IMG/VR virus record: IMGVR_UViG_3300046467_001092
Location: 1-33,319 of that record
DNA: 33,319 nucleotides
Direction: 5' to 3' (one strand)
Origin: a virus
The notes below the pieces were generated by a model that saw nothing but the letters and a program-made list of their open reading frames with translations, did no database searches and was not told the origin of the DNA. This document shows, in pieces, positions 4,904 to 30,663 of the stretch; positions within the stretch are counted from its first letter, which is position 1, and every line of letters starts with the position of its first letter. Both the position numbers and the translations under genes were made by a program.

Positions 4904-5306
4904 CAAACTGATCCGGGTCCGTTAAATCTTTCAGTTCCTGAAACGCCCGCGCAGTGCCACGGTTCACCAGCTTTTCCACCAGACCGGGCTTGCGTAACGA
5001 CAGCATGTCCAAATCGTGCCGGGCAAACTTATTACGCAAATCCTCTACTTTCTCGTTGGCCTGATTGTTCGCCACGGTTAAGCCCTGAATGCGCTCTTGC
5101 GACGCCTTCTGCTCGGCCAAAGCCTTTTGAAGCTGCTCATTCTGCGTGGCTATGGCGTTCTCTAAGAGCTGCTGATTATCCATTGCCTGTTGCAACTGCG
5201 TTGCCATGGCTTGTTTCTCTGCTTCACTCTTATCGTAGTAGAGCTTAAAGCCACCAGCCATAGCGACCAGCACGATGCTTAACACAATGGATAACTTAAA
5301 TCCCAT
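4869..5306 (-). CDS. Membrane-anchored coiled-coil protein, probable inner-membrane spanin
   Basis: This 145-residue protein has one N-terminal membrane segment (residues 3-22, KLSIVLSIVLVAMAGGFKLY) followed by a long coiled coil rich in Q, E, K and A (about 25-90), then KFARHDLDMLSLRKPGL and an acidic end. The topology, with inner-membrane anchor and periplasmic coiled coil, is that of an i-spanin (Rz type). Start 5306 has the ribosome site AAGGA. It overlaps the lipoprotein gene by 35 bases, as Rz/Rz1 pairs often do. The HDLDMLSLRKPGL-type motif is recalled from T4-like marine phage proteins. It should join with the lipoprotein to fuse the two membranes at the end of lysis; this is inference. 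Confidence 0.75.
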   Translation of the reverse strand: MGFKLSIVLSIVLVAMAGGFKLYYDKSEAEKQAMATQLQQAMDNQQLLENAIATQNEQLQKALAEQKASQERIQGLTVANNQANEKVEDLRNKFARHDLDMLSLRKPGLVEKLVNRGTARAFQELKDLTDPDQFDEEDDTAAGPT

Positions 5307-7110
5307 TTGCCATCCTTAACGTAAATACCCTCACCGGAACCGCCTTCCCCTTGAGGGCCATCGGTTCCAACTCTTCCAGTTCATGACGGGAAGACCGTGC
5401 TGTCACCTCACCAATCAAAATATCGCGCTTGGCCTCCTTGGTCGCGCTCTCTAATCGAGCCGCCACATTCACCGCATCCCCGATGCAGGTGTAATCAAAG
5501 CGGCTGTCACTGCCCATGTTGCCGATCACGGCATCGCCGGTATTTACCCCGACACCAATCGCCACTTCTGGCAATCCTTCCTTCTTCATCTCATGACGCA
5601 ACCCTTCCATCCGTCGCTGGATCTCAATGGCGCAATCAATGGCCGCATTCTCATGATCATCCTGATCCAGGGGCGCATTGAAGACACCCATCATGGCGTC
5701 CCCGATAAACTTGTCCACCATGCCGCCAGCGTCCTTAACGCAATCTGCCTGAATGGTCAGCGCCCTATTCATGACCTCAACCACTGCAGGCGGCTCCAGA
5801 GCCTCGGAGAGGCTGGTGAAGCCTCTGACATCAGTAAACAGGTATGTTGCCCTGCGTCTGTCTCCACCCAGCCTGAGCAGCTCTGGCTGCGTCTGCAGAC
5901 GTTTCACCTGGCGTGGGTCCAGATAATGCTCGAATTGCTTCTTGATCTGTTGCCGCAGGACATACTCCCGATAGAACTGATTGAACAAACAATGCGCAAA
6001 CGCAATCAGGCTCGCCAGCACCGGGTAACTGGCATCCACCAGACGCGCCTCGGTGAAGGCGTAATACGACCCGCCGATGATCCCGCCGATGAAAATGATA
6101 AATGAGGGAAGCACGAAGCTAATAGGCAGTTTAGCCAGCAACGCAACGGTCAGAAGTAGAAGGGAGAGAACAACTATTTCCAACAGATTTACGTTGCTGG
6201 GCCGAACCAAGCCATCGTCATTTATCAATGCACTTAGCAGTGTAGCTAGTATGATATGTGCGTCTTTTAGGCCCACCGGCGTTGGGACCAACGGGGAAAC
6301 TCCTTCGGCGGTTACGCCGATTATGACCCACTTGCCAGCCACGACAGACAGATCCCCCGTTGCCTCCACTTTCTGGAAATCCTTATTCCAGCGCAACCAG
6401 ATGCGTCCATTGCCGTCAGTTGAGAAAGGCTCAAACGGAGGTATGCGTACCGCCGCGACGCCAGACTCGTCCATCTTTATCTGATACGACGGTTCCCCTG
6501 TCGCTACCCGTACCATTTCCAAAGGAAAGGAGGGGTATATCTTTCCGCCTACTGAAACGGCGAGCGGGAGCCGTCGTAAAACTCCATCAATCTCCGGGGC
6601 TGAACTCAGCATGCCGGCCCCGTCCGCGGCCTCTTCTAATGCAGGCAAATTTCGCGTTACGCCCGGGTAATTAAAAAGATAATCCTGTGCGTTGCCGCCC
6701 ATCACCGCCGTACCGACATGCGGCGCAGCGCCTTCAATGCCACGCGACGAAGCCGTTTGCCCTAAGACCACCGCAGGATCATCCAGTAATGCCTGCACGA
6801 ATGCCGCGTCGCCCCCGAAGCGATCCGGCTCGGGAAACATTATCGCCAGCCCTATCACCCCGGCCCCTGCCGCCCTTAGATCATGTATTAACTGAGCAAT
6901 ATACTCTCTAGGCCAAGGCCACTGGCCCCGGTCGCGCAAGCTCTGCTCGCCAATATCAATGAGGATGATGTCTTCAACTTGCTGCGCTTCGTCCAAACGC
7001 TGCAGCCAGTCAAACCCCTTGAGACGGATAACCTCAATCGGGTAGGGATCAAGCGCCCGCAGACCGACCAATAACAGGACGGTGACCACGATCGCCCTCC
7101 AAGAAAACAT
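5296..7110 (-). CDS. CHASE2-domain membrane adenylate cyclase (class III)
   Basis: This 604-residue sensor-type cyclase would make cAMP from ATP inside the host. Order: membrane segment 5-18; periplasmic CHASE2 domain about 20-300, with the typical RDRGQWPWPREYIAQL and VIGLAIMFPEPD stretches; three membrane segments at about 307-326, 331-350 and 359-378; then a class III catalytic domain at about 415-600. Metal-binding Asp427 (FTDVRGFT) and Asp471 (DKFIGDAMMGVF), purine-selecting Lys467 and Thr541 (FDYTCIGD), and transition-state Asn548 and Arg552 (VNVAARLE) are all present, so it looks active and ATP-specific. Its ATG overlaps the curlin gene stop (TGATG). CHASE2 cyclases often sit beside FecR-domain genes in bacteria, which suggests the whole block was taken from a host. 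Such a gene is very unusual in a phage. Confidence 0.95.
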   Translation of the reverse strand: MFSWRAIVVTVLLLVGLRALDPYPIEVIRLKGFDWLQRLDEAQQVEDIILIDIGEQSLRDRGQWPWPREYIAQLIHDLRAAGAGVIGLAIMFPEPDRFGGDAAFVQALLDDPAVVLGQTASSRGIEGAAPHVGTAVMGGNAQDYLFNYPGVTRNLPALEEAADGAGMLSSAPEIDGVLRRLPLAVSVGGKIYPSFPLEMVRVATGEPSYQIKMDESGVAAVRIPPFEPFSTDGNGRIWLRWNKDFQKVEATGDLSVVAGKWVIIGVTAEGVSPLVPTPVGLKDAHIILATLLSALINDDGLVRPSNVNLLEIVVLSLLLLTVALLAKLPISFVLPSFIIFIGGIIGGSYYAFTEARLVDASYPVLASLIAFAHCLFNQFYREYVLRQQIKKQFEHYLDPRQVKRLQTQPELLRLGGDRRRATYLFTDVRGFTSLSEALEPPAVVEVMNRALTIQADCVKDAGGMVDKFIGDAMMGVFNAPLDQDDHENAAIDCAIEIQRRMEGLRHEMKKEGLPEVAIGVGVNTGDAVIGNMGSDSRFDYTCIGDAVNVAARLESATKEAKRDILIGEVTARSSRHELEELEPMALKGKAVPVRVFTLRMANGI

Positions 7111-7895
7111 CAATCCGCCTGGGTAATCGTGACCGTCTTGTTACAACTGCTGACACAATCCAGCACCACCGCGTATGCCTTCGCGCTGACGCCGCTCTGC
7201 GTAGCGTTCACTGTGTAGTTACCCTGCTCTACCCGGATGTTCCCAACGTGCGCCCCGTTCCCGCTCTGCGTTAGGTTAACCGTTGAGTTATCAGACGGGT
7301 TATTTCTGAACTCTATGTCCCCATCCTTATTTCCGCTACCTGACTGCGTGATCGTTGCGTCATTGTTATTGCAGTTGTTGCAGGACCGAATATAGGCGTT
7401 ATGGTTGCCGCTACCACTTTGGGTCGAAGTCCAAGTGCTGTCATCACCAAAAGCGTAGAACTTAGCGTAGTGGTTGCCTGTCCCTGATTGCGTAATGGTA
7501 TAGACGTTGTCATCACCGCTCATATAAAGCTCACCGGACATGTCATCACCATCCTGGGTGATGGTCATTTCGTTGTTGTCCTCGTCAGCGTCTATGTAGC
7601 CTGTGGAGTCATTGCCAGTCTGAGTGATGGTGTACTCGTTTCCAGTATGGAATGTATATTGTGAGTACGCTTTAGCCAGGTTGCCTGTACCGTCCTGGTC
7701 TATGTCTATCGTCGCGCTGCTACAAGTATGCGTGGCATAGGTTCCGCTGCTCAGACCGCACCACACGCGAGCCGTGTTACCCGATCCAATTTGGTCGATA
7801 TAGATGCTGGTGCCGCTGCCCTTGGTGTCAATATCCACGGAGTTGTCCGCCGCAAAAACGGGCAGGCTAAGGAGACTGATTAATATAAATCGCAT
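7110..7895 (-). CDS. Curlin-repeat secreted protein (amyloid subunit-like), second copy
   Basis: This 261-residue protein has a Sec signal peptide (MRFILISLLSLPVFA, cut before ADNS) and nine to ten curlin-like repeats of the form (I/T)xQxGxxN, for example IDQIGSGN, IDQDGTGN, ITQSGTGN, ITQSGSGN and LTQSGNG. It ends DCVSSCNKTVTITQAD, with two Cys near the C-terminus and four in all in the Cys/Asn-rich stretches. Curlin repeats stack into a beta-helical amyloid in CsgA/CsgB. ATG 7895 is preferred to the in-frame GTG because GGAGG lies eight bases before it. The gene overlaps the FecR gene by 29 bases and the cyclase start by one. With CsgG and CsgF upstream, it is the likely cargo of the pore. 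Whether it is the major or nucleating subunit cannot be told. Confidence 0.88.
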   Translation of the reverse strand: MRFILISLLSLPVFAADNSVDIDTKGSGTSIYIDQIGSGNTARVWCGLSSGTYATHTCSSATIDIDQDGTGNLAKAYSQYTFHTGNEYTITQTGNDSTGYIDADEDNNEMTITQDGDDMSGELYMSGDDNVYTITQSGTGNHYAKFYAFGDDSTWTSTQSGSGNHNAYIRSCNNCNNNDATITQSGSGNKDGDIEFRNNPSDNSTVNLTQSGNGAHVGNIRVEQGNYTVNATQSGVSAKAYAVVLDCVSSCNKTVTITQAD

Positions 7896-8997
7896 TCTCC
7901 CCACCTCCGTTGATCGTGATATCCAGCAACTTGCCGGCCGTCAAAACTGAAATGTTGTATGCGCTGTTCTTGTCCAGCTCAAGATCAAAGGTGTTCTCGA
8001 CGCTTCTGAAGATGGTCAGTACCTCTCCCTCGACGAACGTATAGGTCTGATTCTGCTGATCGAAACCGGGGAGGATTCCCTCAATCTTAACCCCGGCAAT
8101 CTCAGCACCTCTGGCGTCATCTTTGGTTGCCGACACTTCGATGATGTCTAACAGGTCAGTCAGAAAATCAACATTAAGAAGGTCTATGTCCAATCGGCCA
8201 ATTTCATCAAGCTCGTTCTCATCAAGCTCGTTTTCATCCAGTTCAGCTTCCTCAAGCAAGTCCACATCAAGAATATTTGAGACTGTACCGGCCTGCTCCT
8301 CAACCGCCTTCTCAATCTCATCCGGGGGGCTCACGATCAGCAGGTTGTCGATAAACCCCAGGGTCAAATTGTCCAGTACCACCGGGGCTGTGGGCGCTGT
8401 CTCTGCCATCGACACCATCGTCGCCTGAAAGGCTTCGGTCAGCACCACCTGTCCGGCCAGGCTGTTCACGGTAATCTGTCCGCTGGCATTGCCCATCGCA
8501 TCTGGCAGCAAGATCACCAGGCTTCTACCGATCTCATCGACCGTCATCGTAAAATCCGTACCGCGGATACCGATAACCGCCGTTGGGGTGGCAACGGTGA
8601 TATTGGATTTGTCGATCTTGCCAAGTATGCCGGTCAGGAACCGCGCAGTACCAGAGGCCATTCGGATGGCGAGTTTGCCCTTGCTGGGATTAGGGTCAAA
8701 CACATATTCATCGATAATGATCTTGCTATGCTCGGTGAGCCGCAACATGGAGTCATCTAGGAAAGTAATCGCGATACGACCGTTCCCGGTACGCACATCA
8801 TCGTAAGCTGCAATACCTAGATTTAATTCGGCTAAGAGCGCAGCCGCTCCTTGGCGCACGACCTCGCCGTTCCCTCTCAGCTCAGAGATAGCGCCTACGC
8901 CCTCGCTGACACTTTTCGCATTGGACGCGATGGAAACCGATGAAACCGATTCAGCCGCTAAAAACAGCAGCAGAGTGGCTAACAGCCACTTGAGCAT
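7867..8997 (-). CDS. FecR-domain secreted protein
   Basis: This 376-residue protein has an N-terminal signal peptide (MLKWLLATLLLFLAAESVSS) and a FecR domain at about residues 38-170: VRTGNGRIAITFLDDSMLRL, the SGTARFLTG segment and TPTAVIGIRGTDF are the classic signatures. A Leu/Asp/Glu repeat (ELDENELDENELDEIGRLD) follows at about 248-270. The last residues, ITINGGGENAIYINQ, resemble a single curlin repeat, so it may dock on the fibre. It lacks the cytoplasmic anti-sigma part of true FecR and is probably a periplasmic or surface protein. It lies between the two curlin genes and overlaps both. Signal-peptide FecR proteins next to CHASE2 cyclases are known in bacteria; their role is poorly understood. 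Confidence 0.9.
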   Translation of the reverse strand: MLKWLLATLLLFLAAESVSSVSIASNAKSVSEGVGAISELRGNGEVVRQGAAALLAELNLGIAAYDDVRTGNGRIAITFLDDSMLRLTEHSKIIIDEYVFDPNPSKGKLAIRMASGTARFLTGILGKIDKSNITVATPTAVIGIRGTDFTMTVDEIGRSLVILLPDAMGNASGQITVNSLAGQVVLTEAFQATMVSMAETAPTAPVVLDNLTLGFIDNLLIVSPPDEIEKAVEEQAGTVSNILDVDLLEEAELDENELDENELDEIGRLDIDLLNVDFLTDLLDIIEVSATKDDARGAEIAGVKIEGILPGFDQQNQTYTFVEGEVLTIFRSVENTFDLELDKNSAYNISVLTAGKLLDITINGGGENAIYINQSP

Positions 8998-9695
8998 TGG
9001 TCAATGTCGATGGTCCCGCCCGTTGTGATACCAATAATATTCACGATTCCAGCCGTAGAGCCCGTGCTACTTGTCTGGTCTATGTCGATGTTGTTCGTAT
9101 TACCAGTGACGTCCGCCGTGATGGAATGGTTGGCATTTCCGGTCTGCCTCGTGTCAATATCGTTGCTGTCGCCGTCTACGTCCCAATTATTAGTTGCGCC
9201 GACCACTTCTGTAGTGATATTCAGATCATTGCTGGTGCCAGTGATAACGATATCGGTGTTACCGCTGGTAGCTGTCGATGCTGCACCCTGAGTGAACGTA
9301 AGAGCGTTGGAATCTCCGGTTGCAGCGAAATCAAAGTCACTGCCAGCAACATCTCCTGTCGCGCCAACTGCGAGCGTTTGTGTGTTGGAGTCACCTGTAG
9401 AAGACAACGTGAATGAAGTGCTATTGCCTTGCGCGACCGTAGCGGCAATCACATTGCTGTCACCGATCTGGTCTATATCAACGGTCATGCTGGTTCCAGT
9501 TAAAGACACCCTGGCCGCTGTAGTACCCACGATATTGCTAGCACCGATCTGGTCGATGTTCATCGTGAGGGCGGTAGAGCCGCCGCTCTGAGTGATATAT
9601 ATCGAGTTGTTGGCAGAATAAGCCGAAGGCATATACGCCAAAGAGCAGAAAAATACGAGGTAAACGAGAGAGTATTTAATTACTTGGAATTGCAT
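8979..9695 (-). CDS. Curlin-repeat secreted protein (amyloid subunit-like), first copy
   Basis: This 238-residue protein has a Sec signal peptide (MQFQVIKYSLVYLVFFCSLA..., cleaved near AYSANN) and Asn/Asp/Thr-rich curlin-like repeats: IYITQSGGS, MNIDQIGASN, VDIDQIGDSN, LSSTGDSN, IDIDQTSS and IDIDQCSSG. The repeats are more degenerate than in the second copy, with several losing the Gln. It ends in DQCSSGC, a Cys pair that also recalls the Cys in the second curlin protein. ATG 9695 is chosen over an upstream in-frame ATG because AGGAGGAGG precedes it at good spacing and it opens directly into the signal peptide. It overlaps the CsgG gene end by 20 bases. It is the first cargo gene after the pore gene. 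Confidence 0.87.
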   Translation of the reverse strand: MQFQVIKYSLVYLVFFCSLAYMPSAYSANNSIYITQSGGSTALTMNIDQIGASNIVGTTAARVSLTGTSMTVDIDQIGDSNVIAATVAQGNSTSFTLSSTGDSNTQTLAVGATGDVAGSDFDFAATGDSNALTFTQGAASTATSGNTDIVITGTSNDLNITTEVVGATNNWDVDGDSNDIDTRQTGNANHSITADVTGNTNNIDIDQTSSTGSTAGIVNIIGITTGGTIDIDQCSSGC

Positions 9696-10539
9696 GAGAT
9701 GCCTCCTCCTGTGGCTTGTAGTCCCACAGATCATCCTCAATGCCTTGGATGATTACTGCATAAACCGCCGCCTCAATTGCACTCCGCGTAGCATAAGTCG
9801 CGGTTTCGTTCTTGGCTATCCCGGCCTCTAGCTCCACCAGTTCAGTGCCGTTTTCTGTAAAAATAAACGTGTCAAAGCCAGTAGCTGCCGAATAAATTCT
9901 TTTGCTCGTAATCACGTTCAACAGCACCTGGCCGGTCTGGACCAGTATAACTCTCAGAGCCACCGTGACCTCGTCAATCCGATACTGCGTATTCAAACCA
10001 ATCCCGAGATACCTCGCGCCTATGCCTGCAGACCGGGTATTCGCATCGTAGCCGATGATGCCGCCGGTCAGGATTAAGCCTGAAAACAATAGCGGCGCTA
10101 GCTTATTGGAGCCCTCGCCATCGTAGCTATTTCGAGTTGAAATAATGAGTTGCCGCTCCCTGGTGAGAGCGTCCAAATTGCCCCGCTCCGCCACTAAAAA
10201 CCACTTCCCACCCCCGGCTGCCAGAAGCGCATCAATGAGAAACGAGTCTGCGCCTTGGGTGACCGCGGTGGAGAACAACGCCATGTTGTCAGCAGTAGCG
10301 CGTTGACCAGTCAAATCTAAGAAAGAATAAACCGATACCACGGCCTTCTGCCTGGGCGCTGGCAGATTGACTAAATCTCGGAGTGTTGGCCGTTCAATCC
10401 GTGGCCCGCGAGGACAATCATTAACCTCGAAACCTTTCGCATTGATATAGTCCTGACTCAGACTGGCGCATTCACGCGCTGAATTGACGCTCGCGCATCC
10501 AGCAATCAGGACTAGAAAACATAAACCTAAATACCGCAT
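9676..10539 (-). CDS. csgG: CsgG-like outer-membrane lipoprotein, curli secretion pore
   Basis: This 287-residue protein has a lipobox signal (MRYLGLCFLVLIAGC, Cys15). CsgG forms a nine-fold outer-membrane channel that exports unfolded curlin subunits. The CsgG domain is clear along its length: AVVSVYSFLDLTGQ, LFSTAVTQGADSFLIDAL, KWFLVAERGNLDAL, GGIIGYDANTRSAGIGARYLGIG and NTQYRIDEVTVALRVI all match E. coli CsgG in order. In the constriction loop the Phe (E. coli F56, in FSTAV) is kept while the neighbouring Asn and Tyr are replaced. Length is close to E. coli CsgG (277). It overlaps csgF by 13 bases and the first curlin gene by 20, so synthesis of pore and cargo is probably coupled. It is placed inside the late phage operon. 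Confidence 0.96.
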   Translation of the reverse strand: MRYLGLCFLVLIAGCASVNSARECASLSQDYINAKGFEVNDCPRGPRIERPTLRDLVNLPAPRQKAVVSVYSFLDLTGQRATADNMALFSTAVTQGADSFLIDALLAAGGGKWFLVAERGNLDALTRERQLIISTRNSYDGEGSNKLAPLLFSGLILTGGIIGYDANTRSAGIGARYLGIGLNTQYRIDEVTVALRVILVQTGQVLLNVITSKRIYSAATGFDTFIFTENGTELVELEAGIAKNETATYATRSAIEAAVYAVIIQGIEDDLWDYKPQEEASHAIPSN

Positions 10540-10988
10540 TCCGCTGAACAGATGCCGAAAGTGCCAATTGGGATTCTGATTTCGGTAATGGCTCCATCGA
10601 CATCAGTGACTGTAAGGACGATCTCAGTTCCCGTATTCACAAACGCAATCTGATTGCCTTCCAGGTCTATGACGCCCCCTGTCCCGCCTCCCTCGCTGTT
10701 GAATAGGCTTTCTGCCAGGTCACGGGATAGCTGAGAAAAGATGCGTGATTCAAGATTCCGTATGAATTTAGCGAGCGTTGTATTTTCTGCCTCGCGCTCC
10801 AGCTCATTCAACCGCGCCTCTACTTCGTCTTGAATGGCGATCTTACGACTGCGCTCTTGCTCGTCAATCGTCAGATAATGAGCCGACTGCCCCGCACCGC
10901 TGAAGCTAGGGCTTTTGAATTGAAAGCTCAAACCGTCTGCCCACGCAGACGAAGCAAGTAACAAGCTAATCGACATCAATAGTTTCAT
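10527..10988 (-). CDS. csgF: CsgF-like curli assembly factor
   Basis: This 153-residue protein has a Sec signal peptide (MKLLMSISLLLASSAWA) and then DGLSFQFKSPSFSGAG, matching the mature N-terminus of CsgF (TMTFQFRNPNFGG in E. coli), the part that plugs into the CsgG channel. The body has a helical region ending in FIRNLESRIFSQL, then a beta-rich end (TEIVLTVTDVDGAITEIRIPIGTFG) like the CsgF C-terminal domain. Two Cys close the protein (CSAECGI). CsgF normally couples secreted subunits to nucleation at the cell surface. AGGTGAG precedes the start. It is the first gene of the curli block and overlaps the preceding holin-like gene by 23 bases. No CsgE, CsgC or CsgD homologue is visible in the window. 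Confidence 0.92.
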   Translation of the reverse strand: MKLLMSISLLLASSAWADGLSFQFKSPSFSGAGQSAHYLTIDEQERSRKIAIQDEVEARLNELEREAENTTLAKFIRNLESRIFSQLSRDLAESLFNSEGGGTGGVIDLEGNQIAFVNTGTEIVLTVTDVDGAITEIRIPIGTFGICSAECGI

Positions 10989-19576: not shown

Positions 19577-20134
19577 TTATTCAAATGGGGTAGCGAGCGT
19601 GCCGTCACCATGAAGGAATGCCTCACAGTGCCAAACCGCCGCACTGGTTGCTACCAGACGAATAATCCCACCGACCAGCCAGCCTTGTCCTGCCGATCCC
19701 AGGTCAATGGTATCGTCGTTAGAGGCGTCTGGGATGAAGGTATTCATGTCAGTTGCAGTTGCCGGATCAAACAAATGGGCAAAACCAGAGAATAGGTCGC
19801 TGGCGTTGTCCGTATTGATCTGGCCTGCGCCAGTGAAGGTGGTGCCGACGATGAAGGTGTAGTTAATACCCGCAGCCGCCGTTGGTAGCGTTACCACGAT
19901 ACCCGCCGCCCTGTTCAGGGTATAAACCGTACCTGAGTCGGTTGACTCAACGCTCTTGGTAGCAGACGTAATGCTGCTGACGTTGGCATAAGCGGACAGA
20001 TATCCCGTCGTTGTGATATTGCCGCTGGAGTCGACGTCCAGGTTGGTAGTAATCGCGCCCGTAGTCGAGTTCTTGCTGATCTGCTCGAACCCGCCTTCCG
20101 AACGGACTGGGCCATTGAATGTTGTGTTAGCCAT
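19577..20134 (-). CDS. Probable head fibre or decoration protein
   Basis: This 185-residue protein starts MANTTFNGPVRSEGGFEQIS, then KNSTTGAITTNLDVDSSGN and a beta-rich domain (AAGIVVTLPTAAAGINYTFIV). The N-terminal FNGPVRS(E/K)GGF motif is found in structural proteins following the capsid gene in marine phages. It is the first gene after the capsid terminator and has the ribosome site ACAGGAG. Its leader carries a parS-type site, so it may have its own promoter. Confidence 0.78.
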   Translation of the reverse strand: MANTTFNGPVRSEGGFEQISKNSTTGAITTNLDVDSSGNITTTGYLSAYANVSSITSATKSVESTDSGTVYTLNRAAGIVVTLPTAAAGINYTFIVGTTFTGAGQINTDNASDLFSGFAHLFDPATATDMNTFIPDASNDDTIDLGSAGQGWLVGGIIRLVATSAAVWHCEAFLHGDGTLATPFE

Positions 20135-20166
20135 TAAAATCTCCTGTCGTGGCTAGTGTCTGCCTA

Positions 20167-20182
20167 TGTTTCACGTGAAACA
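20167..20182. promoter_or_regulatory. Exact canonical parS site (ParB-binding palindrome)
   Basis: The 16-mer TGTTTCACGTGAAACA is a perfect palindrome and matches the chromosomal parS consensus bound by ParB/Spo0J. The expected number of exact matches in 33 kb of random sequence is about 1 in 100,000. It lies in the 99-bp gap between the capsid terminator and the next gene. A second short dyad, CTGACAGTCAG, lies just beside it at 20183-20193. No parA or parB gene is seen in the window. Confidence 0.85.
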
Positions 20183-20194
20183 CTGACAGTCAGG

Positions 20195-20226
20195 ATAAAA
20201 AAGAAGGGGGCGGTTGCCCGCCCCCC
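20195..20226 (-). terminator. Rho-independent terminator after the major capsid gene
   Basis: On the minus strand, an 8-bp G/C stem (GGGGGCGG / CCGCCCCC, loop of four) starts eight bases after the capsid stop and is followed by CTTCTTTTTT-type U-rich sequence. It is the strongest terminator seen in the window. It should limit read-through from the head genes and so raise the ratio of capsid protein to tail proteins. Confidence 0.88.
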
Positions 20227-20233
20227 GCATGCC

Positions 20234-21172
20234 CTAGCTGGAGCCGGGCGATCCGTAAATTCCAAGTGGATCTGATACCCCGAAAGAGTAACGCTCTCGC
20301 GCTTTGTAGCGCACGTTACCTGTATCGAAGTCGCCATCCATGCTGGTTTCCAGCGGAGTTCTCTCAAACATCTTCAAGCCATTCGGGATATCGGTGATGA
20401 CAAAGAAGGCATTCGTATCAGTCAAATAATGATTGACAGAATAACCATCAGGTATCGCACCCATATTACGAATCGCGTTGATGTCGTTGTCAGCCGTTGC
20501 CACACGCTGCGTGGTTTCCAGCAATCGATTTGCCGTAAACATTAACGCAGGCGGAACAACCAAGCGGCGTGGTTGGGCAGCGATCAGCAATCCACGCTCG
20601 TCGGTGAGACCCGCAATCGTGATGATCGCGTTCTCTAACGAGGTTTCATTCAAATCTGCTGCCGTCGAAGGCCGGTTGTCGTTCTTGCCGCCAGAGACCA
20701 AGGGATGCCCGTCACCGCCGGTTACACCATCTCCAGACGCCGTGAACAGGTTGACCCCGTCACCGGACTGGAAACTATTGGTGAAACCATTGTTGAGCGG
20801 GTTTACCGCCTTCACTTGCTTCGTATAGCTCATTGCACGGGCAAGGGCTTTGGTATAGCGAGCGGAAAGAGAGTCATAAAGATTATCCTCCATGGCCTCC
20901 TCGGTAATCGCAAATCCCATCGCAATCGTCTCATGATTGTATCTGGCCGTGAAAGCCTCCTGTGCGGCGTCATAGCTGATCGCCGAACCCTCGTCTTTCA
21001 CCGGAGCCGCCTCGAAGCCGGACAGCTTCACCTCTTCCTCAAAAGACCGTTCCGAAGATTCGGTCTCATAAAGCAGAGTGTGCTCGTCCTCGTACTTTTC
21101 GTACTCCAATCCGAACAAGGCATTCAAGCCCGGGAGGAGTTCTTTGAGCATTTGTGCTCTTGAAATAGCCAT
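20234..21172 (-). CDS. Major capsid protein
   Basis: This 312-residue protein (MAISRAQMLKELLPGLNALF...) builds the head shell. It has an N-terminal helix with acidic E-loop-like region (YEKYEDEHTLLYETESSERSFEE), the MGFAITEEAMEDNLYDSLSARYTKALARAM spine-like helix, a Gly-rich insertion, and the PRRLVVPPALMFTANRLL and GLKMFERTPLETSMDGDFDTGNVRYKARERYSFG segments seen in HK97-fold capsid proteins of marine podovirus-like phages. It ends GIYGSPGSS. Its position after portal, scaffold and decoration genes and before a strong terminator agrees with high expression. The HK97 fold is inferred. Confidence 0.92.
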   Translation of the reverse strand: MAISRAQMLKELLPGLNALFGLEYEKYEDEHTLLYETESSERSFEEEVKLSGFEAAPVKDEGSAISYDAAQEAFTARYNHETIAMGFAITEEAMEDNLYDSLSARYTKALARAMSYTKQVKAVNPLNNGFTNSFQSGDGVNLFTASGDGVTGGDGHPLVSGGKNDNRPSTAADLNETSLENAIITIAGLTDERGLLIAAQPRRLVVPPALMFTANRLLETTQRVATADNDINAIRNMGAIPDGYSVNHYLTDTNAFFVITDIPNGLKMFERTPLETSMDGDFDTGNVRYKARERYSFGVSDPLGIYGSPGSS

Positions 21173-28278: not shown

Positions 28279-28692
28279 AAATCGGGGTGAAAACCTCTTA
28301 GGACGTTCCTCAGTAGGAATGTCCTAGGTTTAGAACATTACCTAATCAATATTCAGGACATTACCCGAAGTAAGTCCTCCCCTGAATATTCATCCTAGGA
28401 TCGTCCTAAGGGAACTCTCCTGAGATTTTAGCGAATTTAGCCCCTTGACAGCTAAAGTCAAGTTTTTGCTGGAGAAATTAGCTCTGAAAATTTGCAAAAA
28501 ATTTTTTAGGACGAAAAGCCTAGGCTTTTTCCAGTAAATACTAGGGTCAGGGCACACCATGCAAAGTGTGCATATGTGGAAAAATAGGTAATCGTATGCG
28601 CAGAACTCTATTCCTAGGGATCACACCCGCGTATATCACACAGGGGGGGTCCGGGGGTAGGCATGGGGCTCTGCGCCTACCTAGAATCTACC
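28279..28692. other. Dyad-rich non-coding region between terminase genes, possible packaging or control site
   Basis: No gene is seen in this stretch. It is AT-richer than the flanks and full of AGGAC / GTCCT and CCTAGG words in both orientations: a 14-bp stem with CAGT loop at 28297-28328; a long hairpin at 28348-28390 with arms AATATTCAGG / CCTGAATATT; the palindrome ATCCTAGGAT at 28392-28401; AAAAGCCTAGGCTTTT at 28514-28529; GCACAC / GTGTGC at 28552-28571; and GTAGGC / GCCTAC at 28657-28680. At 28444-28467 a 6-bp stem is followed by five T on the plus strand. Its place between the terminase genes suggests a packaging (pac/cos) or operator role; this is inference. Confidence 0.6.
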
Positions 28693-29817: not shown

Positions 29818-30663
29818 ATGAAAAAAGACGTAAAACAAATAGTTACGGACCAAATCATCGAGCTGATTGAAGAGCACGGTGCGAACTGGACCCAGCCTTT
29901 CGCGAGCCTATGCGGCACACCACGTAATGCCCTCACCGGCAATAAGTACCGTGGACTCAACGCCTTCTGGCTTGGGCTTAAAGGGTTCTCCTTTGTGGGA
30001 ACCTACAAACAGTGGCAGGAGCTGGGCGCTCAGGTTCGCAAGGGCGAAAAGGGCACTTCCATCACCGTTCCTTTGCCGATCAAGAACAAGGAAACGGGTG
30101 AGCAAAAGGGTCTCTTCTTCAGGGCCGCGACCGTGTTCGATTCATCGCAGGTCGATGGCTGGGCGGCGCCGGTAGTGGAGACCGTGGACACAACGACGAA
30201 GCTCGCGCTAGTCGATGAGTACATTGCCAACACTGGGGCTGACATCCGTCATCACCCCGTGGGCGGTGCGTTCTACCGCATTAGCGAGGACTTCATTAAC
30301 CTGCCGTTCCGCCACCAGTTCAGTGCCACTGAGACCAGCAGCGCAACCGAGACCTACTACAGCACAAAGCTCCATGAGCTGACGCACTGGACAGGTCATA
30401 AGTCGCGCTGTGATCGCCTTGATCTCAAGAACCGCAAGGGCTACGCCTTCGAAGAGCTGGTTGCTGAGATTGGCGCAAGCATCCTGTGCGTTGAACTCGG
30501 GGTATCCCCCGTAGTGCGTGAGGATCACGCGCAGTACATCGCGAGCTGGCTGCAATCGCTGGGCAATGACAAGTCCTACGTCTTCGACGCCGCGAGTGCG
30601 GCTCAAAAGGCGGTGGACTTCCTCGATGGAACCCAAGCGCAAGAAGAGAGGAGGGTAGCATAG
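29818..30663 (+). CDS. ardC: ArdC-type antirestriction protein with zinc metalloprotease motif
   Basis: This 281-residue protein has the N-terminal ssDNA-binding ArdC domain (NWTQPFASLCGTPRNALTGN, YRGLNAFWL, KQWQELGAQVRKGEKGT, FRAATVFDSSQVDGW) and a C-terminal zinc-metallopeptidase domain with HELTH (186-190) and FEELVAEIGASIL after it, the likely third ligand. ArdC proteins protect incoming DNA from host restriction. The early position fits that role. AAGGA at 29800-29804 lies in the loop of a small hairpin CCAAT / ATTGG (29790-29811), so translation may be affected by the folding of the leader that remains after ribozyme cleavage. Confidence 0.93.
   Translation: MKKDVKQIVTDQIIELIEEHGANWTQPFASLCGTPRNALTGNKYRGLNAFWLGLKGFSFVGTYKQWQELGAQVRKGEKGTSITVPLPIKNKETGEQKGLFFRAATVFDSSQVDGWAAPVVETVDTTTKLALVDEYIANTGADIRHHPVGGAFYRISEDFINLPFRHQFSATETSSATETYYSTKLHELTHWTGHKSRCDRLDLKNRKGYAFEELVAEIGASILCVELGVSPVVREDHAQYIASWLQSLGNDKSYVFDAASAAQKAVDFLDGTQAQEERRVA

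Follow-up and report, generated by a model that had tools for sequence, protein, structure and literature searches.

The DNA analysed here, called the window throughout, is a stretch of 33,319 nucleotides that makes up a partial phage genome (IMG/VR record IMGVR_UViG_3300046467_001092, positions 1 to 33,319). Its minus strand carries, in order, a gpT-like capsid gene, a terminator-like stem, a 16-bp parS sequence, and a gene of unknown function with a match to phrog_36974 (Table 1). The PF10124 score of the capsid gene is 24.8 bits against a cut-off of 20.1. Gene order makes the phrog_36974 gene a probable cement or minor capsid protein, and the gene in this position is annotated as such, by position, in the related phages DSL-LC04 and Pag-Yong1. 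Elsewhere in the window, a curli-type cluster on the minus strand (5296-10988) encodes CsgF, CsgG, two curlin-repeat proteins, a FecR protein, and a CHASE2 adenylate/guanylate cyclase. CsgG occurs in none of 45 capsid relatives and is present in Pelagibacter phage HTVC008M and in the Methylophilales Melnitz phages. An ArdC-like antirestriction protein with a zincin-like metallopeptidase domain lies on the plus strand at 29818-30660.

Table 1. Features at and around the parS sequence of the window
Feature	Position	Strand	Basis
Next gene, phrog_36974, unknown function	19577..20134	-	phrog match
Mu-gpT-DE structured RNA (RF03012), 5' leader of the next gene	20132..20195	-	Rfam, 51.4 bits against a gathering score of 49
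Extended apical hairpin with parS, six bases on either side of the 16-mer	20161..20188	-	RNA fold/model
Exact parS palindrome TGTTTCACGTGAAACA	20167..20182	no strand	Letter match and Markov expectation
Terminator-like stem of the capsid gene, intrinsic	20205..20226	-	Predicted
Major capsid protein, Mu gpT-like	20234..21172	-	PF25209 and PF10124 above cut-off; phrog_371

The 16-mer is a perfect palindrome that matches the chromosomal parS consensus TGTTNCACGTGNAACA, as tabulated in PMC7022226, at 16 of 16 letters. It is the sole match in the window at three or fewer mismatches, and Markov models of orders 1 to 4 predict between 4.6e-6 and 6.9e-6 copies per window. The sequence-only reading had described an exact, canonical, palindromic parS far from chance, and this description holds, with about 6e-6 copies expected. 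By its letters, the window 16-mer is parS and no accident. The only other perfect 16-bp palindrome in the window is AAAAGCCTAGGCTTTT at 28514-28529, near a poly-A/poly-T palindrome at 28496-28507; it is possibly a two-way terminator.

The parS sequence is intergenic, 32 bp upstream of the start codon of the next gene and 22 bp beyond the terminator stem of the capsid gene. The earlier description of a non-coding gap past the capsid terminator is right in that the site lies between genes and misses that the gap holds a Mu-gpT-DE RNA of which parS forms the tip. The Mu-gpT-DE model consists of an outer helix, CCUG/CAGG, and an apical hairpin of variable length, and the helix includes part of the CAGGAG that precedes the start codon. 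In the window, the RNA covers this Shine-Dalgarno-like CAGGAG (20141-20146), and parS is the apical stem-loop at the end of the variable-length hairpin. The minimum-energy fold forms the tip hairpin and leaves the outer helix unformed. The window RNA thus resembles other Mu-gpT-DE members in scoring above the gathering threshold, in following a gpT-like capsid gene, and in covering the start of the next gene. It differs in its tip, which is 28 nt long and contains parS, whereas the usual tip is 17 nt. Tip lengths were taken from 120 loci among the matches listed, fetched by the outer parts of the RNA alone and regardless of the palindrome, which gave 114 distinct gaps; 72 of these have the 17-nt tip. 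The helix of the 17-nt tip shows real covariation in relatives: across 52 distinct tips, standard pairs fill 88.5% of the pair cells and up to six pair types occur, whereas dealing the 3' letters anew as a shuffle control gave a mean of 71% and a maximum of 76%. Relatives whose leaders are not of the Mu-gpT-DE form (L140, L145, L148, L158, and others) have other conserved leaders in the capsid gap, such as CTAGG...CGACTGACCTAGCAGAC..., and these resemble additional structured RNAs.

How often, and where, do related phages carry the palindrome? Among the matches listed, a 16-mer that departs from TGTTNCANNTGNAACA at no more than one of its 11 fixed positions, here called parS-like, is present in 22 of the 114 distinct gaps; it lies in the tip in 15 of them and upstream of the RNA in seven. 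The other 92, about four in five, hold none. Across related capsid gaps the palindrome takes three positions. It can sit in the RNA tip, between the terminator and the RNA (L227, L241), or straight past the capsid stop codon and before the terminator (L213, L215, L220, L232, L275, and L434, the last a locus from a bacterial assembly). One relative, L135, has a parS-like site although its leader lacks the Mu-gpT-DE form. In a set of 50 related contigs, 17 have a single copy of TGTTYCAYRTGRAACA, placed in the capsid gap, and none has the reversed pattern; visibility of the RNA by eye was among the reasons for choosing these 50 of the 80 capsid loci, which means that neither 17/50 nor the 31/50 from the same set is an unbiased rate. 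Most relatives have a CACATG or CATGTG center, which is noncanonical. ParB of Pseudomonas aeruginosa does not bind parS with two mismatches in vivo, as related in PMC5098823; one-mismatch sites lie outside that test.

A capsid tree places these sites in context. The tree began with 248 matches, reduced to 225 by length and a gap of at least 120 nt, to 193 by merging identical rows, and to 178 proteins once loci retrieved through the palindrome were excluded. The 16-mer appears in 28 rows with at least 12 changes of state, in a FastTree topology with many weak forks and with the "tip" state assigned by distance from the stop codon. L147, L241, and the group around L215 are placed at a distance from the main clade, to which the window belongs. 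As to whether related phages carry the same site at the same place, the answer is divided: the nearest capsid relatives (L128, L129, and L293) keep a parS-like site, whereas the sister group (L126, L272, L134, and L291), with the same gap and RNA, either lost it or never had it. Eight of the capsid relatives are cultured phages. Of these, Alcaligenes phage vB_Af_QDWS535 carries TGTTCCACGTGGAACA exactly, and Pelagibacter phages HTVC027P and HTVC023P have CGTTTCACGTGAAACA and TGTTACACATGTAACA, both intergenic. The other five are without a close parS: four have none at one or fewer mismatches of the degenerate pattern, and DSL-LC04 has a poor one only, in a comparison whose one-mismatch matches include poor ones.

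The strongest evidence on the identity of the phage element comes from bacterial chromosomes. In the marine gammaproteobacterial family to which a Porticoccaceae-titled assembly belongs, TGTTNCANNTGNAACA occurs in 77 of 80 genomes and at least twice in 63. In the one family genome that was read, both sites fall inside recF of the dnaA-dnaN-recF-gyrB block, which is the origin region. These recF sites are coding and, from their sequence, putative ParB sites. In the best 30 of 77 recF matches, site 1 is TGTTCCACGTGGAACA in 21 and TGTTCCATGTGGAACA in five, and site 2 is TGTTCCACATGGAACA in 12, TGTTCCATGTGGAACA in six, and TGTTCCACGTGGAACA in two. At site 1, the Val, Phe, Val, and Glu residues use one codon in 97-100% of cases, whereas the mean over conserved residues in other places is 0.55. 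At site 2, the encoded residue switches between Val and Met while the palindrome is retained. Seventeen of 37 listed family genomes have a CACATG/CATGTG site, 16 of them at 627 bp and one at 633 bp from a canonical site. The CACATG, CATGTG, and CACGTG centers of the phage sites are the same set that this family keeps in recF near oriC. The recF palindrome is kept at the nucleotide level and the phages carry its set of variants, so the phage element is probably a host-type parS. It shares with bacterial chromosomal parS all 16 letters, and the phage forms share the variation at positions 5/12 and in the YR center seen in marine gammaproteobacterial recF. It differs in being on a phage, single, beside a capsid gene, and away from a host oriC. 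A search of bacterial assemblies for capsid relatives gave 25 loci spread over many phyla, most of them phage contigs that had been binned, and points to no one host.

The same word is widespread in phage collections. IMG/VR gave at least 120 matches for each of four parS forms, and the reversed palindrome gave one match in the whole collection. Among the matches listed, 69/132, 50/91, 46/120, and 42/107 are intergenic by a simple ORF picker, and random places in the same loci are intergenic in 14, 11, 13, and 15% of cases, respectively. In a separate set of 50,697 annotated phage records, a count that includes near-identical phages and some Listeria records that may be host DNA, TGTTTCACGTGAAACA is present in 315 (Listeria 87, Microbacterium 62, Arthrobacter 34, Gordonia 25, Bacillus 11, Lactobacillus 11, Enterococcus 6, and others), the TTCC form TGTTCCACGTGGAACA in 108 (Mycobacterium 27, Pseudomonas 20, and others), and TGTTCCACATGGAACA in 20, six of them Pseudomonas phages. 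Three scrambled palindromes of the same composition (reversed, keeping the CACGTG core, and inner-shuffled) are present in none of these records. The parS sequence is strongly over-represented in phage collections, with 315 and 108 records against zero. Laboratory phage-host pairs in which the phage naturally carries parS include DSS3P8 of Ruegeria pomeroyi DSS-3, Woes of Gordonia terrae, and vB_Af_QDWS535 of Alcaligenes faecalis. Among the best 60 of the 315 TGTTTCACGTGAAACA records, 45 are annotated, and the site lies outside coding genes in 33 of the 45, in no feature in 31 of these and in annotated promoters in two. The TTCC form found in Pseudomonas phages is the Pseudomonas chromosomal parS as given in PMC5098823, and the phage parS variants look host-matched, judging by their letters.

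Several further occurrences were seen. Record G140 (locus L086, 116,662 bases) has 24 parS-like sites at 91.7-95.7 kb and 105.7-112.4 kb, 23 of them identical TGTTTCACGTGGAACA in one orientation and one TGTTTCACGTGAAACA; the 12 that were viewed are intergenic and near start codons, and a ParB_N gene was not found in this record. Two short viral contigs (L016, L043) each hold five exact copies of parS, several of them flanked by similar sequence, and a group of viral contigs (L026, L041, L044, L100, L110, L118) has an exact parS in common noncoding surroundings. Exact parS also occurs in several Microviridae and in Spiroplasma phage 4, which are tiny ssDNA phages. A padded parS query matched only 18 of 72,556 plasmid records, including some as large as chromosomes, under a stricter E-value limit that makes the rate not strictly comparable with that for phages; plasmids may avoid host parS.

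The observations above could be explained in other ways. The site could be only the tip of a Mu-gpT-DE leader hairpin that acts as RNA in the control of translation or stability, its parS letters being a coincidence of a palindromic stem. The Rfam match to RF03012, the pairing of the 52 distinct 17-nt tips, and the majority of tips without parS all agree with such a role. However, the 16-mer also lies outside the RNA in seven of the 114 gaps and, in some loci, before the terminator. Its core is constrained as well. A table of 19 distinct parS-like tips, which includes loci retrieved through the palindrome, shows 13 forms of the outer stem, whereas the core varies almost exclusively at parS positions 5/12 and in the central YR, with one change each at positions 1 and 7. 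The unpaired loop letters A-YR-T are kept across parS-like tips. A pure stem would let every pair change and the loop drift, so the need for a hairpin does not by itself explain the parS letters. Among the matches listed, 15 of 17 tips of at least 20 nt are parS-like, and the remaining two look like odd matches. Moreover, where the asymmetric TGTTTCACGTGGAACA lies between codirectional genes among the IMG/VR matches listed, the sense that puts a C-A mismatch into the RNA stem occurs 24 times and the sense that allows U-G nine times; the commoner sense spoils the stem, which speaks for a DNA role. With the out-of-RNA sites, the core constraint, the recF variants, and the TGTTTCACGTGGAACA sense all weakening it, we regard an explanation by RNA alone as unlikely.

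Another DNA-binding protein, of phage or host, might instead use the motif as an operator that happens to equal parS. The sites are often intergenic, the 24 sites of the 116-kb L086 record (23 in the same orientation between genes) resemble a repeated operator, and in some Microbacterium phages the site lies within a helix-turn-helix gene. Against this, the variants match chromosomal sites near oriC of marine bacteria that are under nucleotide constraint, the published Pseudomonas parS (PMC5098823) is found in Pseudomonas phages (20 of the 108 TTCC records), and all three scrambled palindromes are absent from the 50,697 phage records. We hold a coincidental operator to be quite improbable. Some records are likely to be host DNA, such as a 24.6-kb Listeria record whose ten listed places amount to five sites. 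For the window, chance or host contamination is refuted: the expectation is 6e-6, and the window and its relatives are phage contigs of structural genes in which the site occupies a shared gap. Stray DNA or chance has next to no probability as its source. The points that count against a host-type parS are the CACATG or CATGTG centers of most relatives, the 92 of 114 gaps without a site, the sister group that lacks it, and the five of eight cultured relatives without a close match. With these weighed, we think that the window 16-mer is probably a host-type parS and a candidate loading site for host ParB, one that would tie the phage genome to host ParA/SMC. The window site is real and not stray, and it is best seen as a captured host centromere.

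What would read the site? ParB_N (PF02195) has no match in the window, a 33-kb partial genome. Among 26 viral records, 25 are without a match, including the relatives G001 and G006 of about 57 kb, and one has a weak match below the cut-off. A phage-encoded Par system was set aside on these grounds, and the same absence makes host ParB the likely reader. Integrase (PF00589), sought as a sign of a temperate family, is absent from all 22 relatives searched. The window phage is thus likely to be lytic, with a candidate site for host ParB.

These results suggest that phages borrow the chromosome-sorting protein of their hosts. ParB is known to load at parS, close with CTP, and slide from the site (summarized in PMC12704722). 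Nucleation of ParB at the phage site seems quite likely. Host ParB would then load at the phage parS and close as a CTP clamp, and such clamps could slide over the capsid and neighboring genes, connecting phage genomes to the host ParA/SMC machinery. In cells that divide slowly, the genome of a lytic phage, injected or replicating, might in this way be retained, positioned, or distributed together with the host origin, much as has been proposed for phi29 and Spo0J in Bacillus. For a marine host, retention or placement of the genome is the benefit we favor, although that it is the main one is less likely than not; sliding clamps might instead damp the capsid region, or the site might titrate ParB. 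The roles named in the sequence-only reading (placing the genome in the cell, recruiting SMC, controlling late genes, acting as a decoy for chromosome segregation) are likewise hypothetical. The variable RNA tip would be a permissive place for such a site, as a perfect palindrome lengthens the hairpin and would leave the RNA unbroken. A parS in the RNA tip would allow the DNA and RNA readings together, and a functional link between the two is supposition.

It is instructive to compare this arrangement with known systems. Phage-encoded ParABS, of the P1 and mycobacteriophage RedRock type, combines the phage's own ParB with a non-host site; it too places a centromere on phage DNA, whereas the window, a partial genome, has no ParB_N match. 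Some phages use host dif/XerCD, which likewise involves capture of a short host chromosome-maintenance site, in that case a recombination site rather than a centromere. Phi29, which itself has parS sites and whose family members B103 and Goe1 have exact parS, offers a precedent. Its chromosome becomes trapped in spores via Spo0J, the Bacillus ParB (Meijer 2005, as related in PMC9437464), and phage use of host ParB is thus already known. Both cases would involve a virulent phage using host ParB, which for the window phage is a proposal. The differences are that phi29 is entrapped in spores, whereas the likely host of the window phage is a marine bacterium and its site is in an RNA tip. Apart from this phi29/Spo0J account (PMC9437464), the literature searched yielded nothing on host parS in phages generally. 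As far as that literature shows, three things are new: the site sits in the loop of an RNA, its variants look matched to hosts, and it occurs widely.

More broadly, we tentatively propose that capture of host centromeres is common among lytic phages, many unrelated phages having host-variant parS that host ParB would read. In this lineage a cis-regulatory RNA would have taken the site into its loop. The same 16 bp could then be read as DNA by ParB and as an RNA hairpin in the leader of a capsid-accessory gene, which would couple the chromosome cycle of the host to late expression or to placement of the phage genome. If ParB does load, phages would enter or drain the segregation/SMC system of their hosts while encoding no protein for it, and ParB-parS would be part of phage-host biology well beyond spore formers. 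The parS variant would then serve as a sequence mark for testing phage-host pairs, and the phage CACATG and CATGTG sites offer natural variants for work on ParB specificity. Finally, the RNA tip would present a testable case of a single sequence under both RNA and DNA selection.
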